Shown one piece after another: positions 17,405-63,829 of a stretch of DNA of 64,000 nucleotides (positions within the stretch are counted from its first letter, which is position 1; each line of letters starts with the position of its first letter). The notes under the pieces were generated by a model. It had not been told where the DNA came from. It saw nothing but the letters and a program-made list of their open reading frames with translations, and did not search any database. This DNA is from Mesorhizobium sp. AR02 (GTDB lineage: Bacteria; Pseudomonadota; Alphaproteobacteria; Rhizobiales; Rhizobiaceae): assembly GCF_024746835.1 (NCBI RefSeq), contig NZ_CP080531.1, positions 4,732,001 through 4,796,000 of the forward strand, in the 5' to 3' direction. The position numbers and the translations under genes were made by a program.

Positions 17405-17429
17405 CACTTACCGATTGCAAAGAGATCAA

Positions 17430-17453
17430 GGGCGCCCATTGAGGCGCCCTTTT
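17430..17453 (+). terminator. rpoD terminator
   Basis: Stem GGGCGCC (17430-17436) / GGCGCCC (17443-17449) with a 6-base loop followed by TTTT, 25 bp after the rpoD stop. It may also serve the converging dioxygenase gene. Confidence 0.88.
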
Positions 17454-21198: not shown

Positions 21199-21873
21199 AT
21201 GCACAGACATAACCATTTCGGCGAGCGCATGTTCATGCACATGGCCGGCAAATTTGGTGGCAGAGGGGGCGGCGGCTTCGGCCCGTTCGGCCATGGCGGT
21301 CGCGGTGGCGGACGTGGTGGGCCGGGCGATATGTTCCGCGCCGGCCGCATGCTGGCCGACGGCGACCTCAAGCTGATCACGCTGTCGCTGCTGGCCGAGG
21401 CGCCGCGCCATGGCTACGACATCATCAAGGCGCTGGAAGAGCGCACCAGCGGCATCTACAGCCCGAGCCCGGGCGTGGTCTACCCGACGCTGACCTTCCT
21501 GGAAGAGGCCGGCTATGCCGCCTCCGCCGCGGACGGCAACAAGAAGGTATTTTCGATCACCGAGGCCGGGCAGGCGCATCTGGCTGAGAATCGCGAGATG
21601 ATCGACGGCGTGCTCGAACACCTCGAACGCTTCGGCCGCAAGATGGCCAAGGCGCGCGACTGGTTTGGCTGGAACGATGATGGCGACGACCGTCGCGGTG
21701 GCCGCGGTGGCCGTGGCGAGCGTTCGGAAACGCGCGACGAATTCCGTGCCATCCGTCACCGGCTGCGTGCGGCGCTGGGCGAGATCGTCGATGCGCCGGC
21801 TGAAAAGCAGGCCGAGGCGATCGCCATCCTCGAAGCCGCGGCGGAAGCGCTGGAAGCGCTGACGCACCGCTGA
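21199..21873 (+). CDS. PadR-family transcriptional regulator
   Basis: 224 residues. A Gly/Arg-rich N-terminal stretch (GGRGGGGFGPFGHGGRGGG) of about 45 residues precedes a PadR winged-helix domain: LKLITLSLLAEAPRHGYDIIKALEERTSGIYSPSPGVVYPTLTFLEEAGY, with the beta wing KKVFSITEAGQAHL. A helical dimerisation region follows, with a second GGRGGRGE stretch. The glycine-rich head is common in alphaproteobacterial PadR proteins. No target gene lies next to it except itself, and the operators in its own promoter suggest autoregulation. The ligand is unknown. Confidence 0.92.
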   Translation: MHRHNHFGERMFMHMAGKFGGRGGGGFGPFGHGGRGGGRGGPGDMFRAGRMLADGDLKLITLSLLAEAPRHGYDIIKALEERTSGIYSPSPGVVYPTLTFLEEAGYAASAADGNKKVFSITEAGQAHLAENREMIDGVLEHLERFGRKMAKARDWFGWNDDGDDRRGGRGGRGERSETRDEFRAIRHRLRAALGEIVDAPAEKQAEAIAILEAAAEALEALTHR

Positions 21874-21913
21874 GACTTAGAGCAGGGTGCTGGCGCCGAC
21901 CTCGCAAGACCTA

Positions 21914-22079
21914 GGTTCCTCGCCCCCGCAAAGCGGGGGAGAGGTGGCCGCGAAGCGGTCGGAGAGGGGGCTGCGGCGCTGGCAGGTTTTCTCAGACCTC
22001 ATTCAAGGTCGAGCCATTCCCCCTCTCCGTCTCGGCTTCGCCGAGCCACCTCTCCCCCATTTCATGGGGGCGAGGAACC
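21914..22079. repeat. Large rhizobial intergenic inverted repeat
   Basis: The left arm (21914-21970) and the right arm (22019-22079) are inverted copies over about 58 bp: both read GGTTCCTCGCCCCC, then GGGGGAGAGGTGGC, then GGAGAGGGGG, with small internal hairpin loops that differ. The arms are separated by about 48 bp. I recognise the motif as a dispersed Mesorhizobium-type intergenic repeat (knowledge, not searched). Confidence 0.75.
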
Positions 22080-22100
22080 CAAGTTCCGAAAGGCACAAAA

Positions 22101-22122
22101 AAGCCCGGGGAGACCCGGGCCT
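22101..22122. repeat. Left 22-bp flanking direct repeat of IS copy 1 (terminator hairpin)
   Basis: Identical to 23647-23668. It is itself a hairpin: stem GCCCGGG - loop GAGA - CCCGGGC with A residues before and T residues after. The IS begins immediately after it. Confidence 0.85.
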
Positions 22123-22136
22123 CAGACTGCTGACAA

Positions 22137-22162
22137 ACCCCTGGCATTTGCCGGGGGTTTTT
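22137..22162 (+). terminator. Inward-facing terminator at the left end of IS copy 1
   Basis: ACCCCTGGCA / TGCCGGGGGT stem (22137-22158) followed by a T run. It stops transcripts entering the IS just before the transposase start. The mirrored hairpin exists in copy 2. Confidence 0.75.
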
Positions 22163-22175
22163 GATTCACTGGGTC

Positions 22176-23543
22176 ATGTTGAAGCGACCCGCCCCTGAAC
22201 AGACCGCGCTTGAGATGGTAACGCTGGATCAGCTGGTTCCGGCTGATCACCTGTTGCGCAAGATCGACCGTGTGATCGATTTCTCCTTCATCCACGATCT
22301 GACGGCGCCACTCTATTGCCCGGACAATGGCCGGCCGCCGCTCGATCCGACCTTGATGTTCAAGGCGCTGTTCATCGGCTACCTGTTTGGAGTTCGCTCG
22401 GAACGGCAGTTGGTGCGCGAGATCGAGGTCAATGTCGCCTATCGTTGGTTTTTGCGGCTGAAACTGACGGACAAGGTGTTCGACGCCTCGACGCTGTCGC
22501 AGAACCGGCGTCGACGCTACGACGACACCAGCGTGTCGCAGGCGATCTTCGACCGTATCGTCGAGCAGGCGATCCGAGCGGGCCTTGTCGATGGCACGGT
22601 GCTTTACACCGACTCCACCCATCTGAAGGCCAACGCCAACAAGGGCAAATACGATCTTGCCATGATCGCCAAGTCGCGGGCCGACTATTGGGCCGACCTC
22701 GATCGTGCGATCGACGCCGAACGAGGGCTGCACGGCCAGAAGCCGCTGAAGGAGAAGCAACGCCAGCCCGCGGTGAAGGAGACGAAGGTATCGCGCACCG
22801 ATCCCGACAGCGGCTACATGGTGCGCGAGGGCAAACCGAAGGGCTTCTTCTATCTCGACCACCGCACGGTGGATGCGGCCCACGCCATCATCACCGACAC
22901 GCACACGACAGCGATCGTCCACGATTCTACGGTCTACCTGTCGCGGCTCGACCGCCAGGTGGAGCGCTTCGGCTTTGATGTCGGCGCTGTCGGGCTGGAC
23001 GCCGGCTATGCCACGGCCGGCATCGCCAAAGGGCTGGAGGATCGCGCAATACGCGGCGTCACCGGCTATCGCCGCCCAACACCGCCCAAGCCTGGCATGA
23101 TGGGACCGTCATCCTTCACCCATGAGCCCGAGACCGATGGCTATCGCTGCCCACAGGGCCAGTTGTTGGCCTACGCGACCACCGACCGCAATGGCTACCG
23201 CCATTACAAGAGCGCCCCCGCTATCTGCCGCGACTGTCCACTGCTCGCTTCCTGCACCACCAATGCCAAGGCCCAGCGCACCATCATCCGCCACGTCTGG
23301 GCCGATGCCAAGGAACGCACCGACGCCAACCGGCTGACGGCGTGGGGCAAGGCCGTCTACCGCCGCCGCAAGGAAACTGTCGAGCGCTCCTTCGCCGACG
23401 CCAAGCAACTGCACGGCCACCGCTATGCCCGGTTCCGAAGTCTCACCAGGGTAGCCTGCCAGTGTCTGATCGCCGCCGCAGCCCAGAACATGAAGAAGAT
23501 CGCCCTGGCCCTCAGCCCAAGGCCAAAACCCCGCCTCGCATGA
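22176..23543 (+). CDS. IS1182-like family transposase (copy 1)
   Basis: 455 residues from ATG 22176; a TTG at 22161 would add five residues but lies in the terminator T run. DDE-type transposase: the N-terminal region LVPADHLLRKIDRVIDFSFIHDLTAPLYCPDNGRPPLDP and FKALFIGYLFGVRSERQLVREIEVNVAYRWF is typical of IS1182-like enzymes. Catalytic acids are probably in VLYTDSTHLKANANKGK, VGLDAGYATAGIAKG and the late RRRKETVERSFADAKQLHG (Glu). A Cys cluster (CRDCPLLASC) precedes the last motif. The frame is intact, so the element may be active. The same protein is encoded by copy 2. Confidence 0.93.
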   Translation: MLKRPAPEQTALEMVTLDQLVPADHLLRKIDRVIDFSFIHDLTAPLYCPDNGRPPLDPTLMFKALFIGYLFGVRSERQLVREIEVNVAYRWFLRLKLTDKVFDASTLSQNRRRRYDDTSVSQAIFDRIVEQAIRAGLVDGTVLYTDSTHLKANANKGKYDLAMIAKSRADYWADLDRAIDAERGLHGQKPLKEKQRQPAVKETKVSRTDPDSGYMVREGKPKGFFYLDHRTVDAAHAIITDTHTTAIVHDSTVYLSRLDRQVERFGFDVGAVGLDAGYATAGIAKGLEDRAIRGVTGYRRPTPPKPGMMGPSSFTHEPETDGYRCPQGQLLAYATTDRNGYRHYKSAPAICRDCPLLASCTTNAKAQRTIIRHVWADAKERTDANRLTAWGKAVYRRRKETVERSFADAKQLHGHRYARFRSLTRVACQCLIAAAAQNMKKIALALSPRPKPRLA

Positions 23544-23604
23544 GGCAGGCAACCCTGACAAACGCTGCTGACGGCCGAAAATCCTGACCCACCCAACCCC
23601 ATAA

Positions 23605-23632
23605 GAAAAACCCCGCCGAAAATCGACGGGGT
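23605..23632 (-). terminator. Inward-facing terminator at the right end of IS copy 1
   Basis: On the minus strand: stem ACCCCGTCGA / TCGGCGGGGT (one mismatch) followed by TTTTTCTTAT. It would stop transcripts entering the IS from the right. Confidence 0.7.
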
Positions 23633-23646
23633 TTGTCAGCGGTCTG

Positions 23647-23676
23647 AAGCCCGGGGAGACCCGGGCCTTTTTTTTG
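23647..23676. terminator. Bidirectional terminator / right flanking repeat of IS copy 1
   Basis: The 22-bp flanking repeat (23647-23668) plus a following T run. Stem GCCCGGG - GAGA - CCCGGGC. The second copy is at 22101-22122. Between the convergent padR and yiaA-like genes, this was presumably one shared bidirectional terminator before the IS inserted. Confidence 0.85.
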
Positions 23677-23694: not shown

Positions 23695-23955
23695 TCATTC
23701 CTTGCCTACATACTCGCTGATCAGCTTTTCGTTGCGGGCCTTCTCGATCTTGGCGGTCATCTCGGCCGACAGGCGCTCGTCGGTGCGGTACTTGACCAGG
23801 TTCACCAGGCTGCCGGTGAGCAGCAAAATGCCCATGGCCCAGTAACCCTTGGTCGCCAGGTCGACCGGCGCCAGCCACAGCGACAGGCCGAGCATGAAAT
23901 AGGCGGCACCGACCGAGGCGGTGTTGAACATGATGTAGGTCTGATTGGCGTTCAT
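23695..23955 (-). CDS. YiaA/YiaB-type two-helix inner membrane protein
   Basis: 86 residues: a short polar head (MNANQTYIMFNTASVGAAYF), two closely spaced hydrophobic helices (FMLGLSLWLAPVDLATKGYW and AMGILLLTGSLVNLVKY), and a charged C-terminal helix. This is the YiaA/YiaB domain. Function is unknown, but such genes often sit beside pspA-like genes, as here, suggesting a membrane-stress role. It lies 64 bp downstream of the PspA gene on the same strand and is probably in the same operon under the TetR-like repressor. Confidence 0.9.
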   Translation of the reverse strand: MNANQTYIMFNTASVGAAYFMLGLSLWLAPVDLATKGYWAMGILLLTGSLVNLVKYRTDERLSAEMTAKIEKARNEKLISEYVGKE

Positions 23956-62253: not shown

Positions 62254-62277
62254 AGGCAGGCGCTGACGCGCCTGCCT
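62254..62277. repeat. Left 24-bp flanking direct repeat of IS copy 2 (terminator hairpin)
   Basis: Identical to 63801-63824. It is a perfect hairpin: AGGCAGGCGC - TGAC - GCGCCTGCCT. The IS begins immediately after. Confidence 0.88.
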
Positions 62278-63800
62278 CAGACCGCTGACAAACCCCGTCG
62301 ATTTTCGGCGGGGTTTTTCTTATGGGGTTGGTGGGTCAGGATTTTCGGCCGTCAGCAGCGTTTGTCAGGGTTGCCTGCCTCATGCGAGGCGGGGTTTTGG
62401 CCTTGGGCTGAGGGCCAGGGCGATCTTCTTCATGTTCTGGGCTGCGGCGGCGATCAGACACTGGCAGGCTACCCTGGTGAGACTTCGGAACCGGGCATAG
62501 CGGTGGCCGTGCAGTTGCTTGGCGTCGGCGAAGGAGCGCTCGACAGTTTCCTTGCGGCGGCGGTAGACGGCCTTGCCCCACGCCGTCAGCCGGTTGGCGT
62601 CGGTGCGTTCCTTGGCATCGGCCCAGACGTGGCGGATGATGGTGCGCTGGGCCTTGGCATTGGTGGTGCAGGAAGCGAGCAGTGGACAGTCGCGGCAGAT
62701 AGCGGGGGCGCTCTTGTAATGGCGGTAGCCATTGCGGTCGGTGGTCGCGTAGGCCAACAACTGGCCCTGTGGGCAGCGATAGCCATCGGTCTCGGGCTCA
62801 TGGGTGAAGGATGACGGTCCCATCATGCCAGGCTTGGGCGGTGTTGGGCGGCGATAGCCGGTGACGCCGCGTATTGCGCGATCCTCCAGCCCTTTGGCGA
62901 TGCCGGCCGTGGCATAGCCGGCGTCCAGCCCGACAGCGCCGACATCAAAGCCGAAGCGCTCCACCTGGCGGTCGAGCCGCGACAGGTAGACCGTAGAATC
63001 GTGGACGATCGCTGTCGTGTGCGTGTCGGTGATGATGGCGTGGGCCGCATCCACCGTGCGGTGGTCGAGATAGAAGAAGCCCTTCGGTTTGCCCTCGCGC
63101 ACCATGTAGCCGCTGTCGGGATCGGTGCGCGATACCTTCGTCTCCTTCACCGCGGGCTGGCGTTGCTTCTCCTTCAGCGGCTTCTGGCCGTGCAGCCCTC
63201 GTTCGGCGTCGATCGCACGATCGAGGTCGGCCCAATAGTCGGCCCGCGACTTGGCGATCATGGCAAGATCGTATTTGCCCTTGTTGGCGTTGGCCTTCAG
63301 ATGGGTGGAGTCGGTGTAAAGCACCGTGCCATCGACAAGGCCCGCTCGGATCGCCTGCTCGACGATACGGTCGAAGATCGCCTGCGACACGCTGGTGTCG
63401 TCGTAGCGTCGACGCCGGTTCTGCGACAGCGTCGAGGCGTCGAACACCTTGTCCGTCAGTTTCAGCCGCAAAAACCAACGATAGGCGACATTGACCTCGA
63501 TCTCGCGCACCAACTGCCGTTCCGAGCGAACTCCAAACAGGTAGCCGATGAACAGCGCCTTGAACATCAAGGTCGGATCGAGCGGCGGCCGGCCATTGTC
63601 CGGGCAATAGAGTGGCGCCGTCAGATCGTGGATGAAGGAGAAATCGATCACACGGTCGATCTTGCGCAACAGGTGATCAGCCGGAACCAGCTGATCCAGC
63701 GTTACCATCTCAAGCGCGGTCTGTTCAGGGGCGGGTCGCTTCAACATGACCCAGTGAATCAAAAACCCCCGGCAAATGCCAGGGGTTTGTCAGCAGTCTG
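62278..63800 (-). mobile_element. IS1182-like insertion sequence, copy 2 (1523 bp)
   Basis: Same element as 22123-23646 in the opposite orientation and one base shorter in a C run near its 62330s end. Terminal inverted repeats CAGACCGCTGACAAACCCC and CAGACTGCTGACAAACCCC. Flanked by 24-bp direct repeats that are a complete terminator hairpin. Inward-facing terminator hairpins lie just inside both ends (about 62292-62320 and 63762-63790). It separates the azoreductase gene from hen1. Confidence 0.92.
62380..63747 (-). CDS. IS1182-like family transposase (copy 2)
   Basis: Encodes the same 455-residue protein as copy 1, with DDE-type motifs VLYTDSTHLKANANKGK, VGLDAGYATAGIAKG and RRRKETVERSFADAKQLHG intact. 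Identity between the copies suggests recent movement or gene conversion. The element is in the opposite orientation to copy 1, so recombination between the copies would invert the 40 kb between them. Confidence 0.93.
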   Translation of the reverse strand: MLKRPAPEQTALEMVTLDQLVPADHLLRKIDRVIDFSFIHDLTAPLYCPDNGRPPLDPTLMFKALFIGYLFGVRSERQLVREIEVNVAYRWFLRLKLTDKVFDASTLSQNRRRRYDDTSVSQAIFDRIVEQAIRAGLVDGTVLYTDSTHLKANANKGKYDLAMIAKSRADYWADLDRAIDAERGLHGQKPLKEKQRQPAVKETKVSRTDPDSGYMVREGKPKGFFYLDHRTVDAAHAIITDTHTTAIVHDSTVYLSRLDRQVERFGFDVGAVGLDAGYATAGIAKGLEDRAIRGVTGYRRPTPPKPGMMGPSSFTHEPETDGYRCPQGQLLAYATTDRNGYRHYKSAPAICRDCPLLASCTTNAKAQRTIIRHVWADAKERTDANRLTAWGKAVYRRRKETVERSFADAKQLHGHRYARFRSLTRVACQCLIAAAAQNMKKIALALSPRPKPRLA

Positions 63801-63829
63801 AGGCAGGCGCTGACGCGCCTGCCTTTTTC
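63801..63829 (-). terminator. Terminator of the azoreductase gene / right flanking repeat of IS copy 2
   Basis: Perfect 10-bp stem AGGCAGGCGC / GCGCCTGCCT with a TGAC loop, about 30 bp beyond the azoreductase stop. The T run lies on the plus side here (TTTTT, 63823-63827), and the matching A run for the minus strand (AAAA at 62251-62254) is now on the far side of the IS. So before insertion the hairpin had a T run for both strands. Confidence 0.75.

Follow-up and report, generated by a model that had tools for sequence, protein, structure and literature searches.

Ordinary DDE insertion sequences (ISs) leave short target repeats of nearly fixed length, because an enzyme of fixed geometry sets the stagger of the cuts. 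An IS1182-family element of Mesorhizobium sp. AR02 raises the question of what sets the repeat when the duplicated sequence is a complete terminator hairpin. On contig NZ_CP080531.1, in the 64,000-nucleotide stretch from position 4,732,001 to 4,796,000 (the window, in whose coordinates positions are given below), one copy of this element (copy 1) lies between two 22-nt sequences that are identical base for base (AAGCCCGGGGAGACCCGGGCCT). Each consists of an 18-nt stem-loop (GCCCGGG-GAGA-CCCGGGC) plus 2 nt per side, and folding of the core as single-stranded DNA (ssDNA) gave −10 kcal/mol per side, a stability reached by 0 of 200 shuffles. This agrees with the original prediction, made from the letters of the window, that the flanks are a terminator hairpin and, to within 2 nt per side, that the repeat is as long as the hairpin. 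In our reading, to which we assign a probability of roughly 0.8, the DDE transposase of this family targets a stem-loop, usually an intrinsic terminator, and duplicates the whole of it.

Whole-hairpin repeats among copies, relatives and the family

The genome (8.9 Mb) contains eight full copies of the element and one end fragment. Stem-loops flank all eight full copies, and seven of them carry exact direct repeats, of 19, 21, 22, 24, 25, 28 and 31 nt, each of which is a hairpin with a sequence of its own; the eighth (L004) has two unlike hairpins. The seven full copies other than copy 1 are each 1523 bp long. Copy 1 is longer by a single C, added to a C-run close to the right end; apart from this it is identical to L002, which is itself identical to L003.

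A wider set was assembled by scanning a single genome of each species, which gave 413 relatives (the best 80 entered the set), and was enlarged through searches at the genus, order and class levels, fuller sets in chosen genomes, and plasmids. Out of 117 loci, 71 were kept after removal of 19 without a complete element, 14 duplicates and 13 with a single flank; together with 26 more, this made 97 unique copies with both flanks, which were classified as having exact repeats (71), near-exact repeats (14) or non-matching flanks (12). The expectation that the IS chooses stem-loops, usually terminators, was borne out when direct repeats were compared with inverted repeats: 85 of the 97 copies had whole-hairpin repeats, and the 12 others showed no adjacent exact repeat of at least 2 nt.

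Exact repeats measured 16–31 nt (median 21). Repeat and palindrome shared the same centre in 77 of 85 cases, and among the exact ones the contiguous stem came to within 1 nt of the repeat end in 63/71 cases on the 5′ side and 63/71 on the 3′ side. The arms formed Watson–Crick pairs in 91–95% of cases at symmetric offsets 1–6 inside the repeat and in 85% at offset 7, and 43 of 71 exact repeats extended beyond the inner stem by a single A:T pair. Repeat length correlated weakly (0.24) with contiguous stem length, as measured by a stem finder that halted at single mismatches and miscentred a few repeats; symmetry rests on the centre test and the stem-end counts instead. A perfect stem of at least 6 was present in the IS-adjacent 32-mer of 85/97 left and 87/97 right flanks vs. 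108 of 3000 random 32-mers from the window, and this excess, together with the eight of eight genomic copies, argues that flanking by hairpins is not due to chance. Compared across copies, the sequences show that the cuts are symmetric about the dyad, that repeat length follows the hairpin rather than a fixed stagger, and that the hairpin sequences are unrelated to one another.

In the relatives read, empty sites carry one hairpin (none in a single case) and never two, and the comparison therefore shows that the hairpin predated the IS and was duplicated later. For copy 1, 20 relatives were read, chosen among the 144 with some match out of 146 genomes from the genus search. The gap between padR and yiaA held one hairpin of this type in 19 of them, none in one (L132) and two in none (0/20); in L120, the 22-nt hairpin sequence of copy 1 was present base for base. 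At the site of L004, all 12 relatives had a single hairpin, with both flanks, and none had two (0/12). Single hairpins were also found at the L002 site in 10/10 relatives read (two with both flanks aligned, eight with the left flank only), and at the L003 and L005 sites in one both-flank relative each (of four and seven fetched, respectively). The empty-site comparison that had been suggested along with the original prediction hence favoured duplication of a pre-existing hairpin.

The transposase of copy 1 scored 463.7 bits against the NCBIfam model NF033551 (transpos_IS1182; cut-off 270), and the element has terminal inverted repeats (CAGACTGCTGACAAACCCC / CAGACCGCTGACAAACCCC), a feature of the IS1182 family. 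Residues D160 (YTDST), D289 (GLDAGY) and E417 (ERSFAD), numbered as in the 469-residue open frame, are conserved in 96–100% of 46 aligned family members and presumably form the DDE catalytic triad. In a tree of 46 transposases (quick method, Shimodaira–Hasegawa-like approximate likelihood ratio test (SH-aLRT) without bootstrap, some long branches, L346 left out), one clade of 37 rows with an SH-aLRT of 98 united 36 hairpin-flanked elements and ISEfa7. Of the former, 29 had repeats, six had two different hairpins and one had a single readable flank. The Bacilli elements L332 and L338 each have two different hairpins. The clade spans Alphaproteobacteria, Gammaproteobacteria and Bacilli, and whole-hairpin repeats were seen down to ~42% identity, in a Listeria plasmid (L340); no hairpin repeat was found in the other nine IS1182-family rows of the tree, the ends of three of which were not located. 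By this comparison of sequences, hairpin duplication is a trait shared across the clade and its three classes.

Irregular flanks and the bases next to the element

In most of the 12 copies with non-matching flanks, each flank is still a hairpin, the left flank of L059, and L078, being degenerate. One case is L004 (G000:C2:6723195-6724717), whose flanks are both native and contiguous in relatives. One of its hairpins is native (12/12 relatives); the other is foreign, 28 nt long, and matches the genome perfectly at just three places, namely both sides of L003, which lies ~40 kb away, and L004 itself. A crossover between two IS copies would have swapped the flanks, so the native, contiguous flanks of L004 argue against such an origin. 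Either the element brought a donor hairpin with it to this site, or gene conversion took place, with the A-run common to both sites sealing the event.

Crossover does fit L027 (Rhizobium metallidurans), for which the contig ends L300/L303 match the reciprocal product, and L028 is probably another instance, with L306 as the other half of its right-hand site. As a full account of the non-matching hairpins, crossover was rejected on the strength of L004. L152 may offer another foreign hairpin: one of its hairpins is identical to both hairpins of L308, although in the listed relatives its two flanks do not adjoin each other. The remaining non-matching copies are L294, L051, L058, L059, L065, L077, L078 and L083.

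Within the 85 repeat pairs, 71 were identical, 12 had a single-base difference and two (L064, L290) had two differences. All 12 single mismatches fell within the 2 nt touching the IS, six per side (p ~1e-9 vs. an even spread). The IS-adjacent copy was taken as the altered one, since the far copy is continuous with the native flank. Two split-contig cases (L036/L032, and L306 with L028) also fit this pattern. Correction of the palindrome from its other arm gives no general account of these differences, since native pairing is lost in eight of the 12 and a pair is gained in four. The non-transferred strand is likely cut ~2 nt outside the element, with donor bases sometimes retained. If donor bases were always kept, ~60% of sites would be expected to differ per side; only 7% (6/85) did, which implies that they are mostly trimmed. 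Because our repeat finder penalised inner mismatches, repeats that had diverged strongly would have been counted with the 12 non-matching copies.

Isolated or paired IS ends also lay beside hairpins. Solitary right-end fragments of ~50 nt directly beside a hairpin (L009/L255, at G000:C1 near 279672; L236; L237) are probably remnants of lost copies. At L011, L015 and L053, one hairpin stands between two IS ends (IS-hairpin-IS or an IS end remnant), as if one terminator had been struck repeatedly.

Probable hairpin recognition and rival explanations

The original prediction had proposed that the transposase recognises the stem-loop, perhaps as a cruciform, and cuts at its base. The symmetric cuts and the variable length are observed, and the cruciform is what we infer from them, the best argument being that over repeats of 16–31 nt the cuts are still symmetric about the dyad. 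The hairpins of both strands would be extruded together, as a cruciform or as an equivalent arising during transcription or replication, and the two 3′ ends of the IS would attack on opposite sides of the four-way junction, each linking to one hairpin at its 5′ foot. In a cruciform the 5′ feet are opposed, and the distance between the attack points would be independent of stem length; because this distance does not vary with the stem, it would be the fold that sets the repeat length. Copying of the single-stranded hairpins would then yield whole-hairpin repeats. The mismatches suggest that the IS may exit its donor with ~2 nt of donor flank on the 5′ (non-transferred) strands, usually trimmed and sometimes kept. 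A bolder version, to which we would give rather less than even odds, envisages a four-way-junction-directed DDE enzyme with fold-set duplication that would also cut at hairpin feet on the donor; ~2 nt or, occasionally, a whole donor hairpin would be carried along and replace one target copy, as in L004, thereby moving terminators between loci.

Alternatively, the enzyme might recognise linear double-stranded DNA through a short inverted motif at the feet (A-run, AG ... CT, T-run); the hairpin would then be incidental, as this motif is found inverted in terminators. The feet of either strand do share a strong consensus (A-run ^ A, followed in most cases by G, plus the mirror image); T never occurs at repeat positions 1–4 of the 5′ foot; and an A- or T-run accompanies 82 of the 85 sites, with at least four A before and at least four T after at 49, T only at 15, A only at 18 and neither at three. 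Sequence thus also matters, and the original wording that the stem-loop is recognised 'rather than a sequence' was too strong. However, a foot spacing of 16–31 nt would turn such motifs to a different face of the helix from site to site, pairing extends along the arms, and the three sites without either run are still palindromic, so that recognition of a linear motif on its own strikes us as unlikely. Host repair, by which insertion beside a hairpin would be followed by nuclease cutting and hairpin copying, seems more doubtful still. Hairpin-cutting nucleases exist in bacteria, and L004 shows that one IS copy can supply a hairpin to another, possibly through gene-conversion repair; the precise, symmetric, one-per-side outcome in 71/97 copies is far more regular than expected of repair. 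That the hairpins belong to the IS ends as longer terminal repeats, with nothing duplicated on insertion, is hardly credible: palindromic flanks could be read as extending the terminal inverted repeats, yet the hairpin differs per copy while the IS is nearly identical, and it is already present at the empty sites in relatives. We discarded this explanation on those grounds, a single-sided form surviving only for L004. Scarcely better placed is loss of the target hairpin by replacement, as for IS1272, which belongs to the same family and uses the same kind of target as described in PMC5678879 and PMC4923244; hairpin repeats on both sides of 85/97 copies, 71 of them exact, and single hairpins in empty sites speak against it.

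Our preferred reading, stem-loop targeting with duplication of the whole hairpin, itself has several observations against it. Besides the A- or T-runs at 82/85 sites, these are the 12 of 97 copies with non-matching flanks; L004, whose one foreign hairpin in native flanks is not predicted by simple duplication; the near-exact pairs L064 and L290, with two differences each inside the repeat; and ISEfa7 (L339), which lies inside the hairpin clade and has no hairpin at its left end. At copy 1, a simple terminator scan flagged the right-end IS hairpin and the right hairpin copy, and missed the left hairpin copy and the left-end IS hairpin. Stems of 8–10 bp would have to extrude as cruciforms in vivo, and hairpins in ssDNA or in a transcription bubble could serve instead. 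Moreover, the counts are of surviving insertions, and selection against insertion into genes could enrich terminators.

Termination, related systems and implications

Copy 1 lies between convergent genes, as had been proposed: Pfam identified PadR (21199–21873, + strand) on one side and YiaAB (23695–23955, − strand) on the other. The A- and T-runs expected outside the hairpins are there, AAAAAA to the left of the left copy and TTTTTTTT to the right of the right copy, with the refinement that each copy has one of them. Because the IS separates each copy from the run on its inner side, the left hairpin retains only its outer A-run and the right one only its outer T-run. The insertion thereby severs each hairpin copy from one U-tract, so that a transcript from padR meets a hairpin without a T-run, and the claim that insertion at terminators is nearly harmless had to be amended: the element's own inward-facing end hairpins probably take over termination. 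An inward terminator-like hairpin with a T-rich tail occurred within 75 nt of the IS end in 62/63 distinct left and 63/63 right ends, vs. 164/1140 in a control of internal pieces. Each boundary may stop transcription in both directions: the hairpin copy with its native run would act outward and the IS end hairpin inward, leaving the insertion transcriptionally insulated. In an independent genome survey, IS1182 is one of the families found in excess between convergent genes (PMC9208149). In the Bacilli elements L332, L338 and L340, the left terminal repeat pairs with an inner copy of itself, and the resulting hairpin is terminator-like with a T tail.

Table 1. Positions of both IS copies in the window, with their repeats, ends and transposase
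Feature	Position	Strand	Remarks
IS1182-family insertion sequence, copy 1	22123..23646	+	1524 bp
Target repeat of copy 1, left: whole terminator stem-loop, native A-run on outer side	22101..22122	.	single copy in relatives
Target repeat of copy 1, right: same stem-loop, native T-run outside	23647..23668	.	scanned as + strand terminator
Left terminal inverted repeat, CAGACTGCTGACAAACCCC	22123..22141	+	19 nt
Right terminal inverted repeat, CAGACCGCTGACAAACCCC on − strand	23628..23646	-	19 nt
DDE transposase, 460 aa	22161..23543	+	NF033551 IS1182; Pfam DDE_Tnp_1_6, DUF772, DDE_Tnp_1
Left-end subterminal hairpin ending in T-run, inward-facing	22133..22162	+	would stop transcription entering from padR
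Right-end subterminal hairpin and T-run, inward-facing	23608..23634	-	would stop transcription entering from yiaA
Second IS copy	62278..63800	-	same IS
Hairpin repeat of copy 2, lower-coordinate side, AGGCAGGCGC-TGAC-GCGCCTGCCT	62254..62277	.	24 nt; single copy in relative L239
Hairpin repeat of copy 2, higher-coordinate side	63801..63824	.	24 nt

Outside the IS, the window contains 26 perfect hairpins with stems of at least 8, including the two beside the second copy (Table 1); most of the others lack A- or T-runs, as judged by eye. An unoccupied terminator-like hairpin resembling the targets of this IS (AAGGGCGCC-CATTGA-GGCGCCCTT) is located at 17428–17451. Copy 1 is adjoined by a palindromic intergenic repeat (21905–22090), whose arms (21909–21948 and 22045–22084) are 83% complementary and parts of which match 103 places in the genome, the arms counted apart. 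In some relatives (L122, L131, L132 and L135), similar repeats lie at the corresponding position.

The nearest published parallels are IS1272 and TnSha1 of staphylococci, which likewise belong to the IS1182 family and have hairpin or inverted-repeat targets of similar size. These targets are described as inverted repeats or hairpins without a sequence consensus, several of them confirmed terminators (PMC5678879, PMC4923244), and the same two papers, citing Siguier et al., report that some IS1182-family members target palindromes, so that hairpin choice within the family has published support. Unlike IS1272, which according to these descriptions removes or replaces the hairpin and leaves no repeat, the present element keeps and duplicates the complete hairpin. 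For IS1272, duplication of the whole hairpin was sketched by Wan et al. as a hypothetical route (PMC5678879, Fig 13 legend, pathway b); the products here, with a stem-loop flanking each end of the IS and a single one in the empty site, fit that scheme, and their geometry would agree with its joining at the 5′ feet. Target repeats reported for the family vary, from 4 bp in ISPse1 (PMC3281130) and ISCaa15 (PMC3196728) to none (PMC5678879), and a 2025 paper describes IS1182-related elements with or without target duplication that may recognise DNA structure (PMC12056078). The hairpin target and whole-hairpin repeat of the present element fit this mixed behaviour.

Closer in outcome are ISBspe1 and plasmid members of IS1182 (L326-L331, L333, L336, L337, L340), which share the CAG... 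ends and whole-hairpin repeats, with transposases ~42–59% identical to that of our element. Their hosts are Alkalihalophilus, Bacillus, Brevibacillus, Sutcliffiella, Klebsiella, Salinivibrio, Vibrio and Listeria, and their gene tables name an IS1182 family transposase (in one case ISBspe1) and annotate no hairpin repeats. The ISCfr1-like branch (L341 and relatives, ~31% identity) bears the NCBI name IS1182 family as well and falls outside the hairpin clade. No flanking hairpin repeats were found in this branch, in which the IS ends of L157, L158 and L345 were not located, and we therefore dropped the idea that distant family members behave in the same way. The distant family members L165, L168 and L171 (G686; ~32% identity) have ends close to TCGTTGAAAAAC in sequence and, as judged by eye, adjoin AATNNGCC-like sequence rather than hairpins.

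Insertion into intergenic palindromes is also reported for ISPpu9, ISPpu10 and IS1397, which target repetitive extragenic palindromic (REP) elements. Whereas REP is described as one repeated sequence, the native hairpins here vary by site; the exact 28-nt hairpin of L003 was found only beside IS copies, and no single repeated target of the REP type was seen. Whole-hairpin duplication as an observed outcome was not found in the literature searched, which did not extend to ISfinder or TnPedia, where a prior record is possible. The ISfinder family table may list long repeats for IS1182. As far as searched, then, the new elements are hairpin duplication as a regular outcome over a wide clade, with symmetric repeats of variable length, as well as the 2-nt effect, the inward terminators at the ends and the foreign hairpin; novelty is lessened by the fact that IS1272 and TnSha1 were already known to target terminator hairpins.

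Landing in hairpins and copying them whole suggests recognition of DNA shape rather than sequence, with a repeat length set by the fold of the DNA, unlike the enzyme-set stagger of ordinary DDE elements. Hairpin targeting is extended from the staphylococcal IS1272, with its replacement, to a multi-class clade with duplication, and what was sketched in 2017 as a hypothetical pathway is the usual outcome here. Should the four-way-junction version be true, the element moves terminators between loci. With terminator-like hairpins of their own facing inward at the ends, and hairpin copies that would work in the outward direction, such elements would incur little cost between convergent genes, which would explain their multiplication there. 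They offer a natural system in which to ask whether chromosomes in living cells extrude cruciforms or terminator hairpins, and when.

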